Source: Streptacidiphilus melanogenes (lineage in GTDB: Bacteria; Actinomycetota; Actinomycetes; Streptomycetales; Streptomycetaceae). From it: 47,185 nucleotides of DNA. How positions within the stretch are numbered: position 1 is the stretch's first letter; each line of letters opens with the position of its first letter. Below are positions 20,157-34,015 of this stretch, piece by piece. The stretch covers positions 103,497 to 150,681 of the forward strand of contig NZ_BBPP01000009.1 of the NCBI RefSeq assembly GCF_000787835.1, read 5' to 3'. The position numbers were made by a program, and so were the translations under genes. The notes beneath the pieces are model-generated. The model made no database searches and was not told the DNA's origin. It saw nothing but the letters and a program-made list of their open reading frames with translations.

Positions 20157-23100
20157 GTGGCGTTGCCGAAGTCGCAGGCCCAGGCTGTTCGGACGGTGTG
20201 CTCCTACTGCGGGGTCGGCTGCGGGATCGTGCTCGACACCGTGCGCGACCCGGCGACCGGCCTGCGGCGCGCCGTGAAGGCGTCCGGCGACAAGGCCCAC
20301 CCGACGAACGCGGGACGGCTGTGCACCAAGGGCGCCACCAGCGTGGACATGATGGCCGCCTCCGGTCGCGCCCACACCGCGCTCGTGCGCACCGAGCGCG
20401 GCGCCGAGGCCGTGGAGACCGACGTCGACGCCGCCGTCACCGCCGTGGCCCGACGACTGCGCGCGATCATGGACGAACACGGGCCGGACGCGCTGGCGTT
20501 CTACGTCTCCGGGCAGATGTCCCTGGAGGCCCAGTACCTCGCCAACAAGCTGGCCAAGGGATTCGTGCGCACCAACCAGATCGAGTCCAACTCCCGCCTG
20601 TGCATGGCCAGTGCGGGCTCGGGCTACAAGCTCTCCCTCGGCGCCGACGGGCCGCCCGGCTCCTACCGGGACTTCGACCGGGCGGACACGTTCCTCGTCA
20701 TCGGCGCCAACATGGCCGACTGCCACCCGATCCTGTTCCTGCGCATGATGGACCGGGTCAAAGCCGCCGGCGCCAAGCTCATCGTCGTCGACCCGCGCCG
20801 CAACGCAACCGCCGACAAGGCCGACCTCTTCCTCCAGATCAAGCCGGGCACCGACCTCGCCCTGCTCAACGGCCTGCTGCAGCTGCTGGTCGCGAACGGC
20901 CACACGGACGACGAGTTCATCGCCGAGTTCACCGACGGCTGGGACGGCATGCCCGCCTTCCTCGCCGACTACGCACCCACAAGAGTCGCGGAGATCACCG
21001 GCCTCGCCGAGGCCGACATCCGGCAGGCCGCGCAGTGGATCGGCGAGGCGGGCGAGTGGATGAGCTGCTGGACCATGGGCCTCAACCAGTCCACCCACGG
21101 CACCTGGAACACCAACGCCCTGGTCAACCTCCACCTGGCCACCGGCGCCGTCTGCCGCCCCGGCTCCGGGCCGTTCTCCCTGACCGGCCAGCCCAACGCC
21201 ATGGGCGGACGCGAGATGGGCTACATGGGACCGGGGCTGCCCGGCCAGCGGTCCGTGCTCGTCGACGACGACCGCGCCTTCGTCGAGAACCTGTGGAAAC
21301 TCCCTGCCGGAACGCTGCGCACCGAGGCGGGGCGCGGCACGGTGGAGATGTTCGAGCAGATGGCCGCCGGCGACATCAAGGCCTGCTGGATCATCTGCAC
21401 CAACCCCGTCGCCTCCGTCGCCAACCGCAAGACCGTCATCGCCGCATTGGAAACCGCCGAACTGGTCATCACCCAGGACGTGTTCGCCGACACCGAGACC
21501 AACGCCTACGCCGACGTCGTGCTGCCCGCCACCCTCTGGGCCGAGTCCGACGGCGTCATGGTCAACTCCGAACGCAACCTCACCCTCGTCCAGGGCATCG
21601 TCGACCCGCCCGGCCAGGCCCTGCCCGACTGGCAGCTGATCGCCCGCGTCGCCTGCGAGATGGGCTTCGCCGACGCCTTCGGCTACACCTCCTCCGAGGA
21701 GGTCTTCGAGGAACTGAGGCAGGCCTGGAATCCGACGACCGGCTGGGACCTGCGCGGCGTCAGCTACGAGCGCCTGCGCGGCACGCCCGTCCAGTGGCCC
21801 GCGCCGACGGCGGAGGGCCCGGACCGCAACCCGGTCCGGTACCTCAACGACGGCGTCAGCCAGACGCTGCTCGTGCGCGAGGACGGCAGCAGGCCCCGGC
21901 TGGCCTTCCCCACCGCGAGCGGCCGCGGGCAGTTCTTCGCCCGCCCGCATCTGCCCGCGGCGGAACTGCCGGACGACGACTACCCGTTCGTGCTCAACAC
22001 CGGACGCCTCCAGCACCAGTGGCACACCATGACCAAGACGGGGAAGATCAGCAAGCTCGCCAGGCTCAACCGGGGCCCCTTCGTCGAGATCCACCCCGAG
22101 GACGCCGCCCGTCTCGGCGTCGCCGACGGCGACCACCTGGAGATCGCCTCCCGCCGCGGCCGCGCCGTGCTTCCCGCCGTGGTCACCGACCGGGTCCGGC
22201 CCGGCGACTGCTTCGCACCGTTCCACTGGAACGACCTGTTCGGCGAGTACCTGAGTGTCAACGCAGTCACCAACGACGCCGTGGACCCCGTCTCCTTCCA
22301 GCCCGAGTTCAAGGTCTGCGCCGTCTCGCTCAAGCCGGTCCCCGCACCGTCCACGCCCACCGCGCCGTCGACCGCGCAGGCGACCGCACAGTCGGCCACG
22401 CCGACGCACCGGGCGGACCCGCTACCCGCCCCTCGCGGAAGCGAACAGGTCGCCGCACTGGCCGGCCTGCTGGGCGTCGCGGACCTCGCCCCACCGGCCT
22501 TCGCCCCCGCCGAGCGGCACTACCTGGCCGGATTCCTCACGGCACTGGAGTCCGCTCCCCCGCCGGGCACCCGGCTTCCCGTGCTGCCCGCCGACGCCCC
22601 GATCGCGCCCGAACGGGCAATGTGGGTCAACGGCCTGCTGGCCGGGACGTTCTCCCGAACAGCAGTCGACGCCCAGCCGTCCCCCGCCGCCCCGCCTGCG
22701 CCGACTGACGCAGTACTGCGTCCCCAGCCCGAGGTTCAGCCCGAGGTCGTCGTCCTGTGGGCCTCACAGACCGGAAACGCGGAGGAAGCCGCCGCGGCGA
22801 CGGCCGCCCGCCTGGCCGAAGCGGGCTGGACGCCGCGGCTGCTCAGCATGGACGACACCAACCCGCACGCCCTCTCACCCGACGTGCCGGTGCTTCTGGT
22901 CACCAGTACCTTCGGCGACGGAGAAGCGCCGGACAACGGATCCGCCTTCTGGGACTCCCTCACGACGAGCGGCCTGCCGGGAGCCGAACGGCTGCGATTC
23001 TCCGTCCTGGCTCTCGGCGACTCCACCTACGACGACTTCTGCGGCCACGGTCGGCGGCTGGACGAACGCCTGGGCGAGCTCGGGGCCACCCGGATCGCGC

Positions 23101-24409
23101 AGCGCGCCGACTGCGAACCCGACGACGACGAGTCGGCGCGTCACTGGATCGACCGGGTCCTCACCGCCTTGAGCCGACCCGCGGCCACCTCGTCCGGCAC
23201 CACCCCGACGGTGTCCCCGCAGCCCGGTCCGGCCGAGCCGGCTGCACCCGGGAGCTCGCCGGCGCCGACCGCCGGATCGGGCTACTCCAAGGACTCCCCG
23301 TTCGGTGCGCTGCTGGTCGGCAACCGGCTCCTCAGCCTGCCCGGATCCGCCAAGGAGGTACGGCAGTTCGCGTTCGCCACCCGCGGCGGGGCCTCGGCGA
23401 CCTCGCCTACGAGGCCGGCGACGCCCTCGGCGTGCGTCCCGCCAACAGCCCCGATCTCGTCGCCGAATGGCTGGCCGTCACCGGGCTGGACCCGGAGGAG
23501 GCCGTGACCGTCCCCGACGCGGGAGAGCTACCCCTCGCCGAGGCGCTGCGCACCCGGCTCGAGATCGCCAAGATCACCCCGGACCTGCTGCGTTTCGTCG
23601 CCGAACGCGCAGGCGACCGCGAACTGCGACAACTGCTGCGTCCTGACAACAAGGACGCCCTCGCCAGGTGGAGTTGGGGCCTCCAGGCGGTGGACCTGGT
23701 GGGCGCGTTCCCCGTCCGGGCCCGGGCGACGGAATGGGCCGGGGTCCTGAGGCGCCTCCAGCCCCGGCTGTACTCGATCTCCTCCAGCCCCTTGGCGCAC
23801 CCCGACGAGGTACGCCTGACCGTCTCCGTCGTCCGCTACGCGAACGACCTCGGGCGCAGCCGAAAAGGCGTCTGCTCCGCCTTCCTGGCCGACAACGCCG
23901 ACGACGGACCGATCCCCGTCTTCGTCCAGCGCTCACCCCACTTCCGACCGCCCGCCGATCCCGCCACCCCCATGATCATGCTCGGTCCGGGCACGGGAGT
24001 CGCGCCGTTCGTGGGCTTCCTGGAGGACCGTCAGGCCCGCGGCCACACCGGACCGAACTGGCTCTTCTTCGGCGAGCAGCGCGAGGCGACCGACTTCTAC
24101 TACCGCGAGGAGATCGCCGCCTTCCAGGCCTCCGGCCACCTCGACCGCCTCGACCTCGCCTTCTCCCGGGACCAGCGCAACAAGATCTACGTCCAGGACC
24201 GGATGCGGGAACACGGCCCGCGCCTGTGGGACTGGCTGCGAAGCGGCGCCCACTTCTACGTCTGCGGCGACGCCGGCCGGATGGCCAAGGACGTCGACGC
24301 GGCCCTGCGCGAGATCCTCACCACCCACGGCGGCCTCGCCGAGGACGAGGCCGCCGCGTATCTCAAGCAACTCGTCGCCGAAAAGCGCTACGTCCGGGAC
24401 GTGTACTGA
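20157..24409 (+). CDS. Nitrate reductase / flavodoxin / sulfite-reductase-type flavoprotein fusion, interrupted by a frameshift
   Basis: An assimilatory nitrate reductase fused to its own NADPH electron-donor module, about 1,417 aa if one base is restored. Residues 15-56 carry the 4Fe-4S cysteines (CSYCGVGC, GRLCTKG). The NarB/NasA molybdopterin domains follow, including the molybdenum-ligand cysteine in SRLCMASAGSGYK, to about residue 725. Then come a short helical module, a flavodoxin domain (VVVLWASQTGNAEEAA), a Pro/Thr-rich linker, and FAD and NADP domains (RLYSISSSP, GPGTGVAPFVGFLEDR, FYVCGDAGRMAKDVDAAL). The frame breaks at the GGGG run 23388-23391, after residue 1078. The first frame ends at 23507, and the second carries the rest. 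One missing G would explain it. GTG 20157 is chosen for its GGGAGGGGAAG site. Similar fusions are known in actinomycetes. Confidence 0.9.
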
Positions 24410-28301: not shown

Positions 28302-28817
28302 ATGGCCCCCGTCCACCATCCCGACACCGCCATCACCGCCATCACCGCCGACACCGCGGTCACCGCGGTCACCGCGGTCACCGTTGCCGACCGGTACCCG
28401 GTGCCCCGCCCGGCCGCCACCGCGGCGCTGTGCAGCAGCGCGGCGGTCCGCGCGGCCGTTCCCGCCCTGCGGCACTTCGCCCGCAACGCCGCCCGCCGCT
28501 GGGCGGTGCCCGCGGACACCGTCGACGCAGTGTCCCTGGTGGTCACCGAACTCGTCACCAACGTGGTCCTCCACAGTGACAGCCCCCACCTCACGGTGTT
28601 GATCACCCACGACGGTGCCGAGGTCCGTGTCGAAGTGAAGGACGCCGGGACGTGGCGGACCCGCACCTCGCCGCGTCTGGTTCCCGAGGACGACGACGCG
28701 CCGTGCGGCCGGGGGCTGGACCTCGTCGCGCAGTACTCCACCTGGTGGCTCGCCTCCACCGGGCCGGTCGGCACCCGGGTCGTCGCCAGCATCCCTGTTG
28801 CGCCGCCCCCAGCCTGA
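28302..28817 (+). CDS. RsbW-like ATP-binding anti-sigma/serine kinase protein
   Basis: A 171-aa protein with a GHKL (HATPase_c_2) fold of the RsbW/SpoIIAB type common in streptomycetes. The N-box is SLVVTELVTNVVLHSD, the G1 box is VEVKDAGTWR, and the G2 box is GRGLDLVAQYS. Such proteins bind a sigma factor or phosphorylate an anti-sigma antagonist. The N-terminal 35 residues are unusual: a run of Thr-Ala-x tripeptides encoded by a 9-bp tandem repeat. The ATG at 28302 has GAGGAGCTGAGC upstream. It is convergent with an ECF sigma gene 35 bases away, but ECF41-type factors use a fused regulatory domain, so no pairing is claimed. Confidence 0.9.
   Translation: MAPVHHPDTAITAITADTAVTAVTAVTVADRYPVPRPAATAALCSSAAVRAAVPALRHFARNAARRWAVPADTVDAVSLVVTELVTNVVLHSDSPHLTVLITHDGAEVRVEVKDAGTWRTRTSPRLVPEDDDAPCGRGLDLVAQYSTWWLASTGPVGTRVVASIPVAPPPA
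28326..28379 (+). repeat. 9-bp tandem repeat inside the RsbW-like gene
   Basis: Six contiguous nonamers of form ACCGCSRWC (two ACCGCCATC, one ACCGCCGAC, three identical ACCGCGGTC), encoding (Thr-Ala-x)6. The identical copies suggest recent slippage expansion. Confidence 0.85.
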
Positions 28818-28852
28818 ACACGCGAGCCCTGGGCCCGTCCCTCGCGTCGGAT

Positions 28853-29716
28853 TCAGGCGAGGTGCCGCAGCTTGGCCGGGTCCACGATCAGGTCGAGTGC
28901 GGCGATCCGGCCGCCGACCACGGTGAAGCCGAGGACGGACAGGGGCTCCTCCCGGGTGCCGAAGAGCAGGCCGGGGGCTCCGTTCACCAGGACCGGGTGA
29001 GCGCGGGCGATGAAGTGTGGTGCCGTGCGCAGGACATGACGGGCCACCGCGTCGGCGCCGACGCGGGTCGGGAACCCGGCAGGTCCGGCCCTGCCGAGGT
29101 CGCCGCGCAGGACGACGTCGGGGGCGAGGACGTCCAGCAGCGCCTCGAAGTCGCCCGCTCGGGCCGCGGCCAGAAAGGCGTCCACGACCCGGCGCTGGCG
29201 GGACGGATCGGCGTCGGGTCTGGGGGCGGCCTGCACCCGGTGACGGGCGCGGCTCGCCAGCTGACGGGCGGATTCGGGGCTGCGGTCCAGGATCCGGCCG
29301 ATCTCGTCGAACGGCAGGGCGAAGACGTCGTGGAGCACGAAGGCCAGACGCTCGGACGGCCCCAGGCTCTCGAGGACGACCAGCAGGGCCAGTCCGACGG
29401 TGTCGGCGAGGACGGCCTGCTCCTCGGGCCCCGGCTCGGCCGTCTCGACGACCGGTTCCGGCAGCCAGGTACCGGTCTCGTGTTCGCGGCGGCGCCGGCG
29501 CGCCCGCAGCATGTCCAGGCTGATGCGCCCGACGACGGTCGTCAGCCAGTAGCCGAGGTTGTCGATGGTGCCGGCGTCGCTGCGGTCGAGGCGCAGCCAG
29601 CACTCCTGGACGGCGTCCTCGGCCTCGGCGACGGAGCCCAGCACGGTGTAGGCGACCGCCCGCAGGTGCGGCCGGGCGAGCTCGAACTGCTCCGCCAGCC
29701 GTTCCCGGTCCGTCAT
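28853..29716 (-). CDS. ECF sigma factor with fused SnoaL-like domain (ECF41/SigJ type)
   Basis: A 287-aa extracytoplasmic-function sigma factor. Region 2 covers residues 5-80 (RPHLRAVAYTVLGSVAEAEDAVQECWLRL, DNLGYWLTTVVGRISLDML). A linker with WLPEP follows, then region 4 at about 110-165 (LGPSERLAFVLHDVFALPFDEIGRIL). From 175 on there is a SnoaL-like C-terminal domain ending in VDPAKLRHLA, related to the NPDKL motif. In ECF41 proteins this extension replaces a separate anti-sigma factor. The DGGGK motif is not clearly present. The ATG at 29716 follows GGAGG. A promoter matching the ECF41 motif lies upstream, so it probably activates itself and the divergent ABC exporter. Confidence 0.93.
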   Translation of the reverse strand: MTDRERLAEQFELARPHLRAVAYTVLGSVAEAEDAVQECWLRLDRSDAGTIDNLGYWLTTVVGRISLDMLRARRRRREHETGTWLPEPVVETAEPGPEEQAVLADTVGLALLVVLESLGPSERLAFVLHDVFALPFDEIGRILDRSPESARQLASRARHRVQAAPRPDADPSRQRRVVDAFLAAARAGDFEALLDVLAPDVVLRGDLGRAGPAGFPTRVGADAVARHVLRTAPHFIARAHPVLVNGAPGLLFGTREEPLSVLGFTVVGGRIAALDLIVDPAKLRHLA

Positions 29717-29767
29717 CGCGGCCTCCTGATGCGGTGGGTTCCCGTCCCTGCCGGTCTTCCTGTAGTA

Positions 29768-29794
29768 GACGTCCCGGACCCCCCGTTCGTGACA
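29768..29794 (-). promoter_or_regulatory. ECF41-type promoter driving the sigma gene
   Basis: On the minus strand TGTCACG (29794-29788), exactly 16 bases, then CGTC (29771-29768). This matches the ECF41 promoter as I recall it (TGTCACA-n16-CGTC) with one mismatch. The sigma start is 51 bases further on. Confidence 0.7.
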
Positions 29795-29796
29795 GC

Positions 29797-29823
29797 CGTC
29801 ACGTTCGGCAGGCGCCGGACGTC
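29797..29823 (+). promoter_or_regulatory. ECF41-type promoter driving the ABC exporter genes
   Basis: On the plus strand CGTCACG (29797-29803), exactly 16 bases, then CGTC (29820-29823). It is the mirror of the sigma promoter: the two -35 elements together form CGTGAC-n4-GTCACG (29788-29803). The exporter ATG is 33 bases downstream. Confidence 0.65.
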
Positions 29824-29856
29824 TTCCTGGTCGGGGCAGAGCCAAGGAGGTCCACC

Positions 29857-30861
29857 ATGCCAGTACGCCACATCGCCGCAGGTCCCGCGCCCGCACGACA
29901 GGGGTCCGCACCGCCCGGCGCCGAGGGACCGGCCTTGGAGGTCCGGCAGCTGACCAAGGTCTACCCGAACGGTGTCCGCGCCGTGGCCGGCGTCGACTTC
30001 ACCGTGGACGGCGGCGAGGTCTTCGGACTGCTCGGGCCCAACGGCGCGGGGAAGTCCACCACCATCGGCATGCTCACCACCGCGGTCACCCCGACCTCCG
30101 GCACCGCGTACGTGGCCGGCCACGACGTCGTCACCGAGCCGCTCGCCGCACGGGCTGCCAGCAGCGTCGTCTTCCAGGACTCCGTCCTCGACCGCGCGAT
30201 GACCGGCCGCCGCAACATCCGCCTGCACGCACAGCTGTGGGGCGTGCCGTCGACCTCGGCCGCCCGCCGGACCGCCGAGCTGGCCGACGCCTTCGGCCTG
30301 GACGCTCTCCTGGACCGGCCGGTGGACACCTACAGCGGCGGCGAGCGACGTCGCCTGGAGATCGCCCGCGCCCTGGTGTCCGAGCCACGGGTGCTGTTCC
30401 TGGACGAGCCCACGGTCGGCCTCGACACCCGGATCCGGTACGAGCTGCTCGACCTCATCGGCCGTCTGCGGTCCCGTTCTGCGATGACCACAGTGCTGAC
30501 CACCCACTACCTCGACGAGGCGGAGCGGCTGTGCGACCGGATCGCGGTCGTGCACCAGGGCCGGATCGTCGCACTCGACAGCCCGGCGGCGCTGCTCGCC
30601 CGGCTCGGCCCCGAGGTGCTGGAACTGCGCGGCAGCCGCGACCACCAGGGCGCGCTGGCGCTGCTGCGAGCTCGCGGCCTGGCCGACGGAGCAGCGTTCT
30701 CGGTCGGCACGACGCTGACCGTCCCCCTGGCCGGATCTGCACGCGAGGCCGCCGACACCCTCGCGGCGCTCGGCGACGGCGCCTCGTCCTTCACCACCCG
30801 CCGACCCACCCTCGACGACGTCTACCTGCAGCTCACCGGCAGCAGCCTGACCGGTGACTGA
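29857..30861 (+). CDS. DrrA-like ABC transporter ATP-binding protein
   Basis: A 334-aa ABC ATPase of the daunorubicin-resistance (DrrA) group. Walker A is LLGPNGAGKSTT, the Q-loop region is SSVVFQDSVLDRAMTGRRN, the signature is YSGGERRRLEIARAL, Walker B is VLFLDEPTVGLD, and the switch histidine lies in VLTTHYLDEAE. The C-terminal DrrA-type domain (VLELRGSRDHQGALALLRARG ... RRPTLDDVYLQLTG) is present. A 25-residue Ala/Pro-rich N-terminal extension precedes the domain. The ATG at 29857 has AAGGAGG. It is followed 15 bases later by the permease gene. Probable drug or lipid export. Confidence 0.95.
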   Translation: MPVRHIAAGPAPARQGSAPPGAEGPALEVRQLTKVYPNGVRAVAGVDFTVDGGEVFGLLGPNGAGKSTTIGMLTTAVTPTSGTAYVAGHDVVTEPLAARAASSVVFQDSVLDRAMTGRRNIRLHAQLWGVPSTSAARRTAELADAFGLDALLDRPVDTYSGGERRRLEIARALVSEPRVLFLDEPTVGLDTRIRYELLDLIGRLRSRSAMTTVLTTHYLDEAERLCDRIAVVHQGRIVALDSPAALLARLGPEVLELRGSRDHQGALALLRARGLADGAAFSVGTTLTVPLAGSAREAADTLAALGDGASSFTTRRPTLDDVYLQLTGSSLTGD

Positions 30862-30876
30862 GCCACGGAGCCCACC

Positions 30877-31731
30877 ATGACCACGCTCACCCTCCCCCTG
30901 GTCCGCCCGGCCCCGACCGTCGGTCCCCGGCCCCTCGCCGCCTGGGCGGCGCTGACCCGCCGCCGGATCGCGCTCAGCGCCCACACCCCGCGCGAAGTCC
31001 TCGCGCCCCTGGTGACACCGATCCTGTTCGCCCTGGTGATCGCCCCGGCACTGGCACGGCTCATCCCGACGAGCGGCCCCGGCGGCGTCGACTACAGCTC
31101 CTACGTCATCATCGGGACGATCGGTCTGCTCATTCCGCTCAGCTGCACCTTCGCCGGCATCGGGGTGATCGTGGACCGCACGGCCGGTGCCCGTCGCGAG
31201 CTGATCGCCGCCCCCGTCCCCCGCTCCCTGATCGTGCTGGGCAACCTGGCGGTGGCCCTGCTGACCAGCCTGCTCCAGGTCGCGGCGCTCCTGCTGGCCG
31301 GGTGGGCGCGCGGCGCCCGGCTCGACGTCACCGCCGCCGGCTTCGGCTGGTTCGCCGCCGCCGTCCTGGCCTTCACGGTCTTCATGTACGGCGTGTCCGA
31401 GATCCTGGCCAACCGCATCCCCACACAGGAGGAGTACGTCGGCCTGACCCCGGTGGTCGCGATCCTCCCCTGGTTCCTCGCCGGATCCCTCTTCCCCGTC
31501 ACCGCCATGCCCGCCGGACTGGCCGCCGTCGCCCGCGCCCTGCCCACCACCCATGCCCTCGCCCTGCTGCGCTACGGGCTCCTGGACCCGAACGGCCACG
31601 GCCTGCACGACATCTGGGGAGTCGGCGACACCGCCACCGCGGCCGGACTGAGCCTCCTCGTGCTCACCGCCTGGGCCACGGTGCTGACCGCCCTGTCCCT
31701 GCGTACCTTCCGCCGCAGCGCCGTCACCTGA
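30877..31731 (+). CDS. ABC-2 type permease (DrrB-like)
   Basis: A 284-aa integral membrane protein with six transmembrane helices and the ABC-2 layout: a polar N-terminal arm (WAALTRRRIALSAHTPREVLAPL), then helices such as LVTPILFALVIAPALARLI, YSSYVIIGTIGLLIPLSCTFAGIGVI, LIVLGNLAVALLTSLLQVAALLLAGW and WFAAAVLAFTVFMYGVSEILANRI. It partners the DrrA-like ATPase encoded 15 bases upstream. Expression of the pair is likely under the divergent ECF sigma promoter. Substrate unknown. Confidence 0.93.
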   Translation: MTTLTLPLVRPAPTVGPRPLAAWAALTRRRIALSAHTPREVLAPLVTPILFALVIAPALARLIPTSGPGGVDYSSYVIIGTIGLLIPLSCTFAGIGVIVDRTAGARRELIAAPVPRSLIVLGNLAVALLTSLLQVAALLLAGWARGARLDVTAAGFGWFAAAVLAFTVFMYGVSEILANRIPTQEEYVGLTPVVAILPWFLAGSLFPVTAMPAGLAAVARALPTTHALALLRYGLLDPNGHGLHDIWGVGDTATAAGLSLLVLTAWATVLTALSLRTFRRSAVT

Positions 31732-31849
31732 CGCCGAGCCGGCCTGGGTTCCTGGTCCTCCCTGCTGTTCGGGTGTCCGAGCGGTCAAGGTTCGCGGACG
31801 TCCCGGCGGGGCGGGCCGAAGCCGTACGCCCCCGGGGTGACAATGCGGC

Positions 31850-33487
31850 ATGGCTGAGAAGACCGAGGCATCGAACGGCTCGTCCGTGATGACCGGTGCC
31901 GCAAGGCTTGTCCTGCTGACGCTCGCCTCGGGACAGTTCCTGATGGCGCTCGACAGCTCGGTGATGAACGTGTCCATCGCGACCGTCGCGAAGGACGTGG
32001 GCACCTCCGTGACCGGAATCCAGGGTGCGATCACGGCTTACACCCTGGTGATGGCCGTGCTCATGATCCCCGGCGGCAAGGTCGGCGCCATCATCGGCCG
32101 CAAGCGGGCCTTCATGATCGGGTGCGTGGTCTACGCCCTCGGCTCCTTCACCACCGCCATCGCGCCGAACCTGCCGGTGCTCCTGCTGGGCTGGTCGTTC
32201 CTGGAGGGCGTCGGCGCGGCGCTGATCCTGCCCGCGATCGTCGCGCTGGTCGCCGGGAACTTCGGGGAGCGGCAGCGGCCGGCCGCCTACGGGCTGGTCG
32301 CGGCCGCCGGGGCGATCGCGATCGGGCTCGGGCCGCTCATCGGCGGCATTGCGACCACGTACTTCTCGTGGCGGTGGGTGTTCGCCGGAGAGGTCGTGAT
32401 GGTCGTCGGCATCCTTGCGCTCGCACGTCGGGTGGCCGACGCCCCACCTGATCGACGTCCGCGGATCGACGTCGTGGGCGCGGTGCTGTCGGCTCTGGGG
32501 CTGGGCGGCTTCGTCTACGGTGTGCTGCGGTCGGACGAGTGGGGCTGGTTCAGCCCCAAGCCGGGCAAGCCGTCCTGGTTCGGCTTCTCGCCGGTCGTCT
32601 GGCTGATGCTGGCGGGCCTCTTCGTGATCTGGCTGTTCTTCCGCTGGGAGCACCGCCTGGCCAGGCAGGGCAAGGAACCCCTGGTCGACCCCGACCTGCT
32701 GCGCAACCGGCAACTCTCGGGCGGCCTGACGATGTTCTTCTTCCAGTACCTCATCCAGATGGGTGTGTTCTTCGTCGTCCCGCTGTTCCTGTCCGTCGCG
32801 CTCGGCCTCTCCGCCCTCGAGACGGGGGTCCGCATCCTGCCCCTGTCGCTGACCCTGCTGGCGGCGGCGGTCGGCATCCCGCGCCTGCTCCCGGAGGTGT
32901 CCCCGCGGGCCGTCGTCCGGATCGGTCTGCTGGCGATGGTCGCCGGTGCCGTGACGCTGATGGCGGCCCTGGACACCAGCTCCGGAGCGGAGGTCACCAC
33001 GGTGCCGCTCCTGCTCGTCGGTCTCGGCATGGGGGCGCTGGCTTCCCAGCTCGGGTCGGTGACGGTCTCCGCGGTGCCGGACGAGCTGAGCGCCGATGTC
33101 GGCGGTGTGCAGAACACCGTCACCAACCTCGGCGCCTCCATCGGCACCGCCCTCGCCGGATCCGTCATGATCGCCGTGCTCACCTCGTCCTTCCTCAGCA
33201 ACGTGGAGCAGAGCCCGGCGATCCCGGCCGAGGCCAAGAGCCAGGCCACCGTCCAGCTCTCCGCCGGCGTCCCGTTCGTCTCGGACGCCCAGCTCCAGGC
33301 CGCGCTCGACAAGTCCGGCGCGAGCTCGGAGGCCTCCCAGGCCGCGCTCGACGCCAACGCCGACGCCCGGATCGACGGTCTCAAGGTGGCCCTGGCGATC
33401 CTGGCCCTCACCGGGCTCGTCGGGCTGTTCTTCGTGCAACGCATCCCCACGACGCAGCCCGGATCCGCGCACCGTCCCGACGACTGA
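31850..33487 (+). CDS. MFS drug exporter, DHA2 (EmrB/QacA) family
   Basis: A 545-aa major-facilitator protein with about fourteen transmembrane helices. The N-terminal motif C region reads GQFLMALDSSVMNVSIATVAKDVGTSVTGIQGAITAYTLVMAVLMIPGGKVGAIIGRKRAF, including the G-x3-D/G-R-K/R-R motif A variant. A long loop in the final third precedes the last helix. DHA2 members export drugs, dyes or lipids by proton antiport. The ATG at 31850 lacks a ribosome site and follows GACAAT by five bases, so it may be leaderless. A MarR gene is convergent, 9 bases away, and may control it. Confidence 0.95.
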   Translation: MAEKTEASNGSSVMTGAARLVLLTLASGQFLMALDSSVMNVSIATVAKDVGTSVTGIQGAITAYTLVMAVLMIPGGKVGAIIGRKRAFMIGCVVYALGSFTTAIAPNLPVLLLGWSFLEGVGAALILPAIVALVAGNFGERQRPAAYGLVAAAGAIAIGLGPLIGGIATTYFSWRWVFAGEVVMVVGILALARRVADAPPDRRPRIDVVGAVLSALGLGGFVYGVLRSDEWGWFSPKPGKPSWFGFSPVVWLMLAGLFVIWLFFRWEHRLARQGKEPLVDPDLLRNRQLSGGLTMFFFQYLIQMGVFFVVPLFLSVALGLSALETGVRILPLSLTLLAAAVGIPRLLPEVSPRAVVRIGLLAMVAGAVTLMAALDTSSGAEVTTVPLLLVGLGMGALASQLGSVTVSAVPDELSADVGGVQNTVTNLGASIGTALAGSVMIAVLTSSFLSNVEQSPAIPAEAKSQATVQLSAGVPFVSDAQLQAALDKSGASSEASQAALDANADARIDGLKVALAILALTGLVGLFFVQRIPTTQPGSAHRPDD

Positions 33488-33496
33488 CGTCCCGCG

Positions 33497-33982
33497 CTAC
33501 GCGTCGCCGCCGACGGCGTCGCTGATCGCGTTCAGCGCGCGGACCAGGGTGGTGTAGTCGCCTGACGCGACCGGTTTGACGAGGTACTCCTGGACGACTT
33601 CGGCGTGGACCGCGGCCGCCTGGACGAAGACCTCGCACCCCCGGGCGGTGGCCGTCACCACGGTCACTCGGCGATCCGTGGGTGACGGCCGACGACGGAC
33701 CAGGCCTACCTCCTCCATGCGGTCGATCAGCCGGGTGACACCACCGCTGGTCAGGACGAGTTCGGCGCCGAGGGCACGTTGGGACAGTCCCTCGCCGGGC
33801 TTGCGGCACAGCTCGATCAGGACTTCGAACATGGTGTGGTGGATCCCGCAGCGGGCCCGAAGGGCCGCATCGATCCGCTGCTCCACGCCGCCGGCCGCCT
33901 TGACCAGCAGGCCCATCTCGCGCACCAGATCGCTCTCGGCCGCCCGTGCCGCCTCGCGGTCCGCGCCTCGCTGGGAGTCCAT
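33497..33982 (-). CDS. MarR family transcriptional regulator
   Basis: A 161-aa winged-helix repressor. The central winged helix reads LSQRALGAELVLTSGGVTRLIDRMEEVGLVRRRPSPTDRRVTVVTATARG, including the conserved D-R-R wing tip, and is flanked by dimerisation helices. The start is set at ATG 33982 because GGAGG lies nine bases upstream. The ATG at 33991 directly abuts that site. It is convergent with the MFS exporter and divergent from a decarboxylase. A candidate operator lies between it and the decarboxylase. Ligand probably a phenolic or other aromatic compound, by family analogy. Confidence 0.93.
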   Translation of the reverse strand: MDSQRGADREAARAAESDLVREMGLLVKAAGGVEQRIDAALRARCGIHHTMFEVLIELCRKPGEGLSQRALGAELVLTSGGVTRLIDRMEEVGLVRRRPSPTDRRVTVVTATARGCEVFVQAAAVHAEVVQEYLVKPVASGDYTTLVRALNAISDAVGGDA

Positions 33983-34015
33983 CTGCGCCATCCTCCGTCC
34001 AATTCCTGACCACTC

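Follow-up and report, generated by a model that had tools for sequence, protein, structure and literature searches.

Paired ECF41-type promoters between a SigJ-like sigma gene and a divergent ABC-2 exporter: a probable sense-and-export module in Actinomycetota

Why does an ECF41-type sigma gene stand back to back with the genes of an ABC exporter? According to passages in two published accounts, ECF41 sigma factors are held back by a SnoaL-like extension, and their release is thought to be conformational and likely brought about by a small molecule (PMC8999054, PMC3426412). The signal is called unknown in one of these (Wecke 2012, PMC3426412) and "likely small molecules" in the other (PMC8999054). 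Wecke 2012 counts 373 ECF41 loci; in 55 of them the sigma gene is divergent from a gene for a decarboxylase, oxidoreductase or epimerase, and frequently both genes carry the promoter (PMC3426412). In the DNA analyzed here, 47,185 nucleotides of Streptacidiphilus melanogenes (the window; 43 genes in our gene call), the sigma gene has no carboxymuconolactone decarboxylase, oxidoreductase or epimerase neighbor; it is flanked instead by a HATPase_c_2 gene and the ABC exporter (Table 1). Such enzyme linkage is not obligatory, being absent from 34% of the ECF41 genes in the same survey (Wecke 2012, PMC3426412).

The sigma protein has three domains above the Pfam cut-offs, Sigma70_r2, Sigma70_r4_2 and SnoaL_2, the last with 29.2 bits against a cut-off of 27 over residues 178-247. 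Its sigma core thus consists of regions 2 and 4 only, with no region 3. The NCBIfam SigJ model (PRK09636) is passed with 286.9 bits against a cut-off of 271, and the SigX4 model (TIGR02957) is missed with 258.3 against 323.25; we take both models to belong to ECF41 sigma factors. Moreover, residues 9-278 match the solved structure of Mycobacterium tuberculosis SigJ (PDB 5xe7, E 4.5e-52), a protein with the same sigma2-sigma4-SnoaL_2 order for which we know of no exporter linkage. The SnoaL_2 hit and the structural match up to residue 278 agree with the C-terminal extension of ECF41 factors, which is SnoaL/NTF2-like and about 100 residues long. The best named relatives are mostly from Actinomycetota. 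Membership in ECF56, the SigG-type group with a SnoaL_2 fusion, was considered and rejected: the score with PRK08241, which we take to be the SigG-type model, is 91 bits against a cut-off of 240, as compared with 287 against 271 for SigJ. The mark of ECF56, a co-transcribed RsfG-like anti-sigma gene, is also absent, with no co-directional gene after the sigma gene in the window gene call.

Table 1. Features of the sigma/exporter locus and its flanks, in window coordinates
Feature	Position	Strand	Length	Remarks
HATPase_c_2 protein gene	28302-28817			Convergent with sigma gene; 35 bases between gene ends; 59.9 bits
ECF41/SigJ-type sigma gene	28853-29716	minus	287 aa	Sigma2, WLPEP linker, sigma4, fused C-terminal SnoaL_2
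Shine-Dalgarno of sigma gene	29727-29722	minus		AGGAGG, read directly from the sequence
Predicted ECF41 promoter of sigma gene	29768-29794	minus		-35 TGTCACG (29794-29788), n16, -10 CGTC (29771-29768)
Inverted repeat of -35 elements	29788-29803	none		CGTGAC-n4-GTCACG
Predicted ECF41 promoter of exporter genes	29797-29823	plus		-35 CGTCACG (29797-29803), n16, -10 CGTC (29820-29823)
Shine-Dalgarno of ATPase gene	29844-29850	plus		AAGGAGG, read directly
DrrA-like ABC-2 exporter ATPase	29857-30861	plus	334 aa	ABC_tran, 110.6 bits
DrrB-like ABC-2 exporter permease	30877-31731	plus	284 aa	ABC2_membrane, 69.5 bits
EmrB-like MFS exporter gene	31850-33487	plus		Directly after ABC pair
MarR gene	33497-33991			Convergent with MFS gene

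The genes on the other side encode an ABC ATPase and an ABC2_membrane permease by Pfam, the composition of an ABC-2 type exporter. The gap between the two genes is 15 bases, which makes a single operon probable. The earlier note had called the exporter DrrAB-type. Indeed, the best NCBIfam models are drrA for the ATPase (TIGR01188, 288 bits) and drrB for the permease (TIGR01247, 65.3 bits), but both scores fall under the NCBI cut-offs for DrrA and DrrB proper (312.45 and 223.05). Like the DrrAB daunorubicin exporter, then, the window pair is an ABC-2 type ATPase with a single permease in one predicted operon; unlike it, the pair stays below the curated cut-offs and is linked to an ECF41-type sigma gene.

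A second exporter system, of the MFS type, directly adjoins the ABC pair (31850-33991). The MFS and MarR genes were rejected as parts of the same module, since by eye neither lies beside the permease gene in the gene calls of two related loci, L032 and L033, described below. A nearby biosynthetic cluster was likewise discarded as a source of substrate: Pfam searches with 20 further window proteins gave a molybdopterin oxidoreductase, a permease, an amidohydrolase and similar proteins, with no obvious cluster. At 20196-24409, a molybdopterin oxidoreductase joined to a flavodoxin domain looks like an unusual reductase fusion, and its gene overlaps that of a FAD/NAD reductase. The idea that the exporter came from a plasmid was dropped after a tblastn search of 72,556 plasmid records with the permease returned three weak haloarchaeal matches (25-29% identity). 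No sigma-70 promoter or terminator was found in a scan of 28750-31900.

The start codons of the sigma and ATPase genes are 140 bases apart. The earlier note had placed a half-promoter with an exact 16-base spacer on each strand of this region, and direct reading bears this out (29794 to 29768 on the minus strand, 29797 to 29823 on the plus strand), with 2 bases between the two 7-mers. Compared with the published consensus TGTCACA-n16-CGTC (Wecke 2012, PMC3426412), the sigma-side site matches at 10 of 11 positions and the exporter-side site at 9 of 11, so that both are off consensus. From -10 element to ATG there are 51 bases for the sigma gene and 33 for the exporter; the untranslated leaders mapped in two organisms measure 22 and 23 bases (Wecke 2012, PMC3426412). 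In dinucleotide shuffles of the 140-base region, opposite-strand sites with both observed scores were never reached (0/2000), and sites of at least 9/11 on both strands arose in 3/2000. When the whole window was shuffled, at least two site matches occurred in 3 of 100 cases (mean 0.24).

Lone sites carry little meaning, because the single-site pattern BGTCACR-n16-CGTC occurs at 100 places in the window genome and its reversed control at 36; prediction of a genome-wide regulon from single sites was abandoned as too noisy on these same counts. At G000:C107:257479-257535 a short tandem repeat holds three overlapping ECF41-like sites, each shifted by 15 bases and in register, which are probably there by chance. 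The strict mirror arrangement, with a gap of 0-30, was found in 4 of the 388 family genomes, once in each, the window being one of the four places; its reversed-pattern control gave none among the matches listed for these genomes. By tblastn, three of the four adjoin a sigma gene (the window, L131/L140 and L132/L141). At the fourth (L129/L139, G087), back-to-back ECF41 promoters lie beside a degenerate ECF41-like frame of 240 aa, in which sigma region 2 is sub-threshold (23.0 bits against a cut-off of 24). A looser form of the pattern occurs at 18 places in 18 of 396 phylum genomes (control, one genome). Mirror promoters predict ECF41-type sigma genes in this set, because a sigma match, broken in one case, adjoins 11 of the 18 places; the other seven have none beside them.

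Is the pairing with the exporter conserved? Relatives were collected by two routes. The first went through the sigma protein and combined 62 loci from named records with the best loci of the genus and of the family. It yielded 121 loci, 119 of them with upstream sequence, and a divergent ATPase gene lies within 200 bases in three: the window, L032 (a Frankiaceae metagenome-assembled genome [MAG]) and L033 (a Jatrophihabitans MAG). When the family loci were ranked by sigma, the window was the only one of the best 30 with the exporter beside the sigma gene. For the second route the permease was searched in 396 genomes of the phylum; it is present at E <= 1e-40 in seven, the window's own included. 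One of these contigs starts inside the ATPase gene (G610). Of the six genomes whose contig reaches the gene start, five have the sigma gene divergent and adjacent; beside the window's own, these are L133 (G428), L134 (G508), L136 (G429) and L138 (G631), the last with a broken sigma gene. At L137 (G444), where the permease is 45% identical, a divergent MarR gene (51.6 bits) stands in place of the sigma gene and the ECF41 sites are absent, the best candidate scoring 7.5/11. This has the appearance of a regulator swap on a related pump, MarR for sigma.

The sigma/exporter set thus comprises the window, the two MAG loci and the four drafts, all seven from draft or metagenome assemblies. Both promoter sites are found in 7/7, each with 9-10 of 11 matches and a 16-base spacer; spacings of 15-17 or 15-18 were permitted in the locus scoring, part of which carried a 0.5 penalty for spacings other than 16, and 16 was obtained each time. 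GTCAC and CGTC are invariant in 14/14 sites, and the promoter spacers average 33% identity (72 between-lineage comparisons). Choosing each site as the best score favors such invariance, and the shuffles include that choice. With spacing fixed at 16, shuffles reached both observed scores in 0/2000 cases for six loci and 1/2000 for the seventh, and at least 9 matches at both sites in 0-11/2000, depending on the locus. Conservation of the half-promoters in orthologous intergenic regions, which the earlier note had proposed as a check, therefore holds at every locus of the set. L134, L136 and L138 are close (one genus label), so the seven loci amount to about five independent lineages. They span five families and reach another class of the phylum, and we regard the pairing as maintained because linkage and both promoters recur together in these seven loci and five families.

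The loci are not equally intact. L138 retains both ECF41 promoters and the ATPase of the exporter, but its permease match is split in two and its sigma match is confined to residues 1-69 and 239-286; another sigma factor may serve these promoters, or the locus may be decaying. The ATPase frame of L134 contains a stop. In the window's genus, none of the 13 other genomes has the permease at E <= 1e-20, so the module is accessory there. As for the sigma proteins, the WLPEP motif of the ECF41 sigma2-sigma4 linker (Wecke 2012, PMC3426412) is exact in the window, L032 and L033, and takes a variant form in L133, L134 and L136; in the alignment of 141 relatives, 31 have it unchanged. At the distal NPDKL motif, which is said to contact the linker in ECF41 (passages of PMC7730460), the window has a partial match, DPAKL, and L032 and L033 have NPAKL and NPEKL.

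Protein families, two predicted promoters and the recurrence of these promoters with the gene pair are what we observe. Because the same pair and both promoters are found in distant relatives, the sigma factor probably switches on itself and the divergent pump together. We consider it likely that the locus is a one-component module for sensing and export, with an ECF41 sigma factor at its center that is gated by SnoaL and activates itself and the exporter, and with the pump closing the loop. The sigma factor would be kept inactive by its own SnoaL-like C-terminal domain and released when a small molecule meets that domain. Once freed, it would bring RNA polymerase to two separate ECF41 promoters pointing apart. 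The promoter on its own gene would provide positive autoregulation and hence a sharp on-switch; the other would drive the DrrAB-like exporter operon, and the pump, once made, would bring the inducer level down and so close the loop. Promoter recognition by the window sigma factor and its control by the SnoaL domain are carried over from published ECF41 work, in which recognition was tested in two organisms (Wecke 2012, PMC3426412). That the pump exports the inducer is a step we only infer. Since the exporter pairing is maintained, the pump's substrates become candidate inducers, which narrows the search, and at a guess they are the likely ones. The paired promoters offer a ready two-way reporter.

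The sigma proteins suggest something of its history. In a quick tree of 141 sequences, one branch of 113 rows has a crown of 104 other sigmas (support 96); the six intact exporter-linked proteins fall outside this crown, at the base of the branch. The exporter-linkage label changes three times on this tree, against a shuffled mean of 5.9 (0/500 as low); one early linkage followed by losses would fit, as would a few gains. In a tree of 16 ATPase rows, most forks of which are weak, the window pairs with L032 (83/90), in agreement with the sigma tree. The sigma-linked ATPase rows are not one clade in it; their label changes three times, against a shuffled mean of 5.0 (16/500 as low). More tentatively, the exporter-linked sigmas may be an early-branching SigJ/ECF41-like lineage dedicated to exporters across the phylum, sensing through SnoaL, transcribing its own gene and the pump, and relying on the pump to remove the inducer, a drug-sensing efflux circuit that would use neither a repressor nor a two-component system; we hold this to be possible rather than probable.

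Three further loci (L031, L093 and L095) group with the exporter-linked sigmas, and no exporter match was found in them. At L031, from a Mycobacterium MAG, the sigma gene groups with the window's and stands in line between SDR and FMN-reductase genes, and its promoter falls within the final part of the gene before it. Its SnoaL domain is 71% identical to that of the window (73% for L032), and the locus thus appears to join the same type of sensor to different targets. The similarity of the SnoaL domains and the redox-type neighbors give a hint of the signal for this subgroup, which could be a redox-active or aromatic compound.

How much of this arrangement is new? The earlier note had held that a mirror-image promoter coupling an ECF41 factor to an ABC drug exporter would be a new module. 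For oxidoreductase-type neighbors the mirror layout is already on record: in Table 4 of Wecke 2012 the ECF41 motif precedes 36 sigma and 41 partner genes (PMC3426412). We found it beside such genes as well. Back-to-back ECF41 promoters adjoin a carboxymuconolactone decarboxylase gene at L131 and, weakly, at L177 (26.9 bits against 23), epimerase-type genes at L173, L186 and L188, and a SnoaL gene at L132. At L184 and L189 they precede tiny frames of 85 and 66 aa that look membrane-protein-like by eye and for which no Pfam match was found. The <ECF< >COE> loci of Wecke 2012 (PMC3426412) share with the window a SigJ-like core with a C-terminal extension and a TGTCACA-n16-CGTC-type promoter on both divergent genes; their target is a single oxidoreductase-type enzyme, whereas that of the window would be a two-gene ABC-2 exporter. 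ECF257 also has an ECF sigma gene beside ABC transporter genes, but it is described as a separate ECF group with an as yet uncharacterized mechanism (in passages of PMC8999054). As far as our searches go, the novel element is a conserved exporter as ECF41 cargo: no report of the sigma/exporter pairing was found among the open-licence papers that the searches listed or in passages of PMC3426412, PMC8999054, PMC7730460 and PMC11256431. This cargo widens the range of ECF41 targets past the redox-type enzymes described in Wecke 2012 (PMC3426412).

The same comparison raises an alternative, namely that this is an ordinary divergent ECF41 locus whose neighbor happens to be an ABC pump, with co-expression but neither a shared signal nor feedback. 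It would accord with the back-to-back promoters beside decarboxylase, epimerase-type and SnoaL genes, in line with Table 4 of Wecke 2012 (PMC3426412), and with L031, where a SnoaL domain so close to the window's keeps company with SDR and FMN-reductase genes. However, a chance neighbor would not be expected to recur with both promoters at seven loci in five families, as a maintained pairing does, and we think this explanation somewhat unlikely.

It is also conceivable that the promoters are real ECF41-type promoters but that other ECF41-like paralogs mainly drive the exporter, as part of a shared regulon and not of a private module. Searching the window genome (107 contigs, 8.77 Mb) with the sigma protein gave 19 matches at E <= 0.001, several of them 39-53% identical over most of their length; a segment of sigma4, RQL[AV].RAR, is common to 85/141 sigma rows; and L138 keeps both promoters despite its broken sigma gene. 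On the other hand, a shared regulon would not need linkage, and sigma and exporter are linked as far away as another class of the phylum. Moreover, ECF41 factors are essentially single-target in the two organisms covered in Wecke 2012 (PMC3426412). We judge this improbable.

Control of the sigma factor by the convergent HATPase_c_2 neighbor, in place of the SnoaL domain, is very improbable. The domain score and the short distance between the gene ends (Table 1) speak for it, and anti-sigma factors of the RsbW kind presumably share the HATPase_c_2 fold. Such factors, however, are known to act on SigB-type sigmas and are not known to act on ECF sigmas, and by eye the gene lists of L032 and L033 have no such neighbor beside the sigma gene.

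The earlier note had described the two -35 elements as one inverted repeat; that this repeat acts as a functional unit is not supported by comparison of the loci. In the back-to-back loci the gap from -35 to -35 is 2 (window), 12, 22, 8, 9 and 10 bases, and at L133 the geometry is reversed: the promoters face each other and their -10 elements are 4 bases apart. Given these variable gaps and the one face-to-face locus, each promoter is a unit by itself and the window's tidy repeat is incidental; the repeat is probably not a unit. That the repeat is the operator of a dimeric repressor or activator, good inverted repeat though it is, is hardly credible when the half-site gaps vary in this way with the 16-base link to CGTC fixed, and when the flanking genes are those of a sigma factor and an ATPase, with no repressor and the nearest window MarR gene starting about 4 kb away. 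In the window, where 2 bases separate the -35 elements, there would probably not be room for two polymerases at once.

Many ECF41 loci carry face-to-face promoters with an almost constant gap. The pattern GTCAC-n17-CGTC-n0..20-GACG-n17-GTGAC has 74 places in 67 of 388 family genomes, and its control had none among the matches listed for these genomes. The gap is 8 in 52 of the 74 places and 9 in 8, with other gaps in 14. Thirty of the places were inspected further (L143-L172): a sigma match is present at 29/30, with the predicted sigma start at most 60 bases away in 26/30. Five divergent proteins tested in Pfam proved to be one carboxymuconolactone decarboxylase, two flavodoxin-fold reductases, one NAD(P)-binding protein and one FMN oxidoreductase. 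The paired sites make up a single large palindrome, with an ECF41-type sigma gene on one side and a divergent gene, mostly of redox type, on the other; it looks like a bidirectional promoter whose geometry is constrained. Neither palindrom- nor inverted nor bidirectional occurs in the main text of Wecke 2012 (PMC3426412). The gap of 8 is also seen at two Chloroflexota/Thermomicrobiota loci (L036 and L065).
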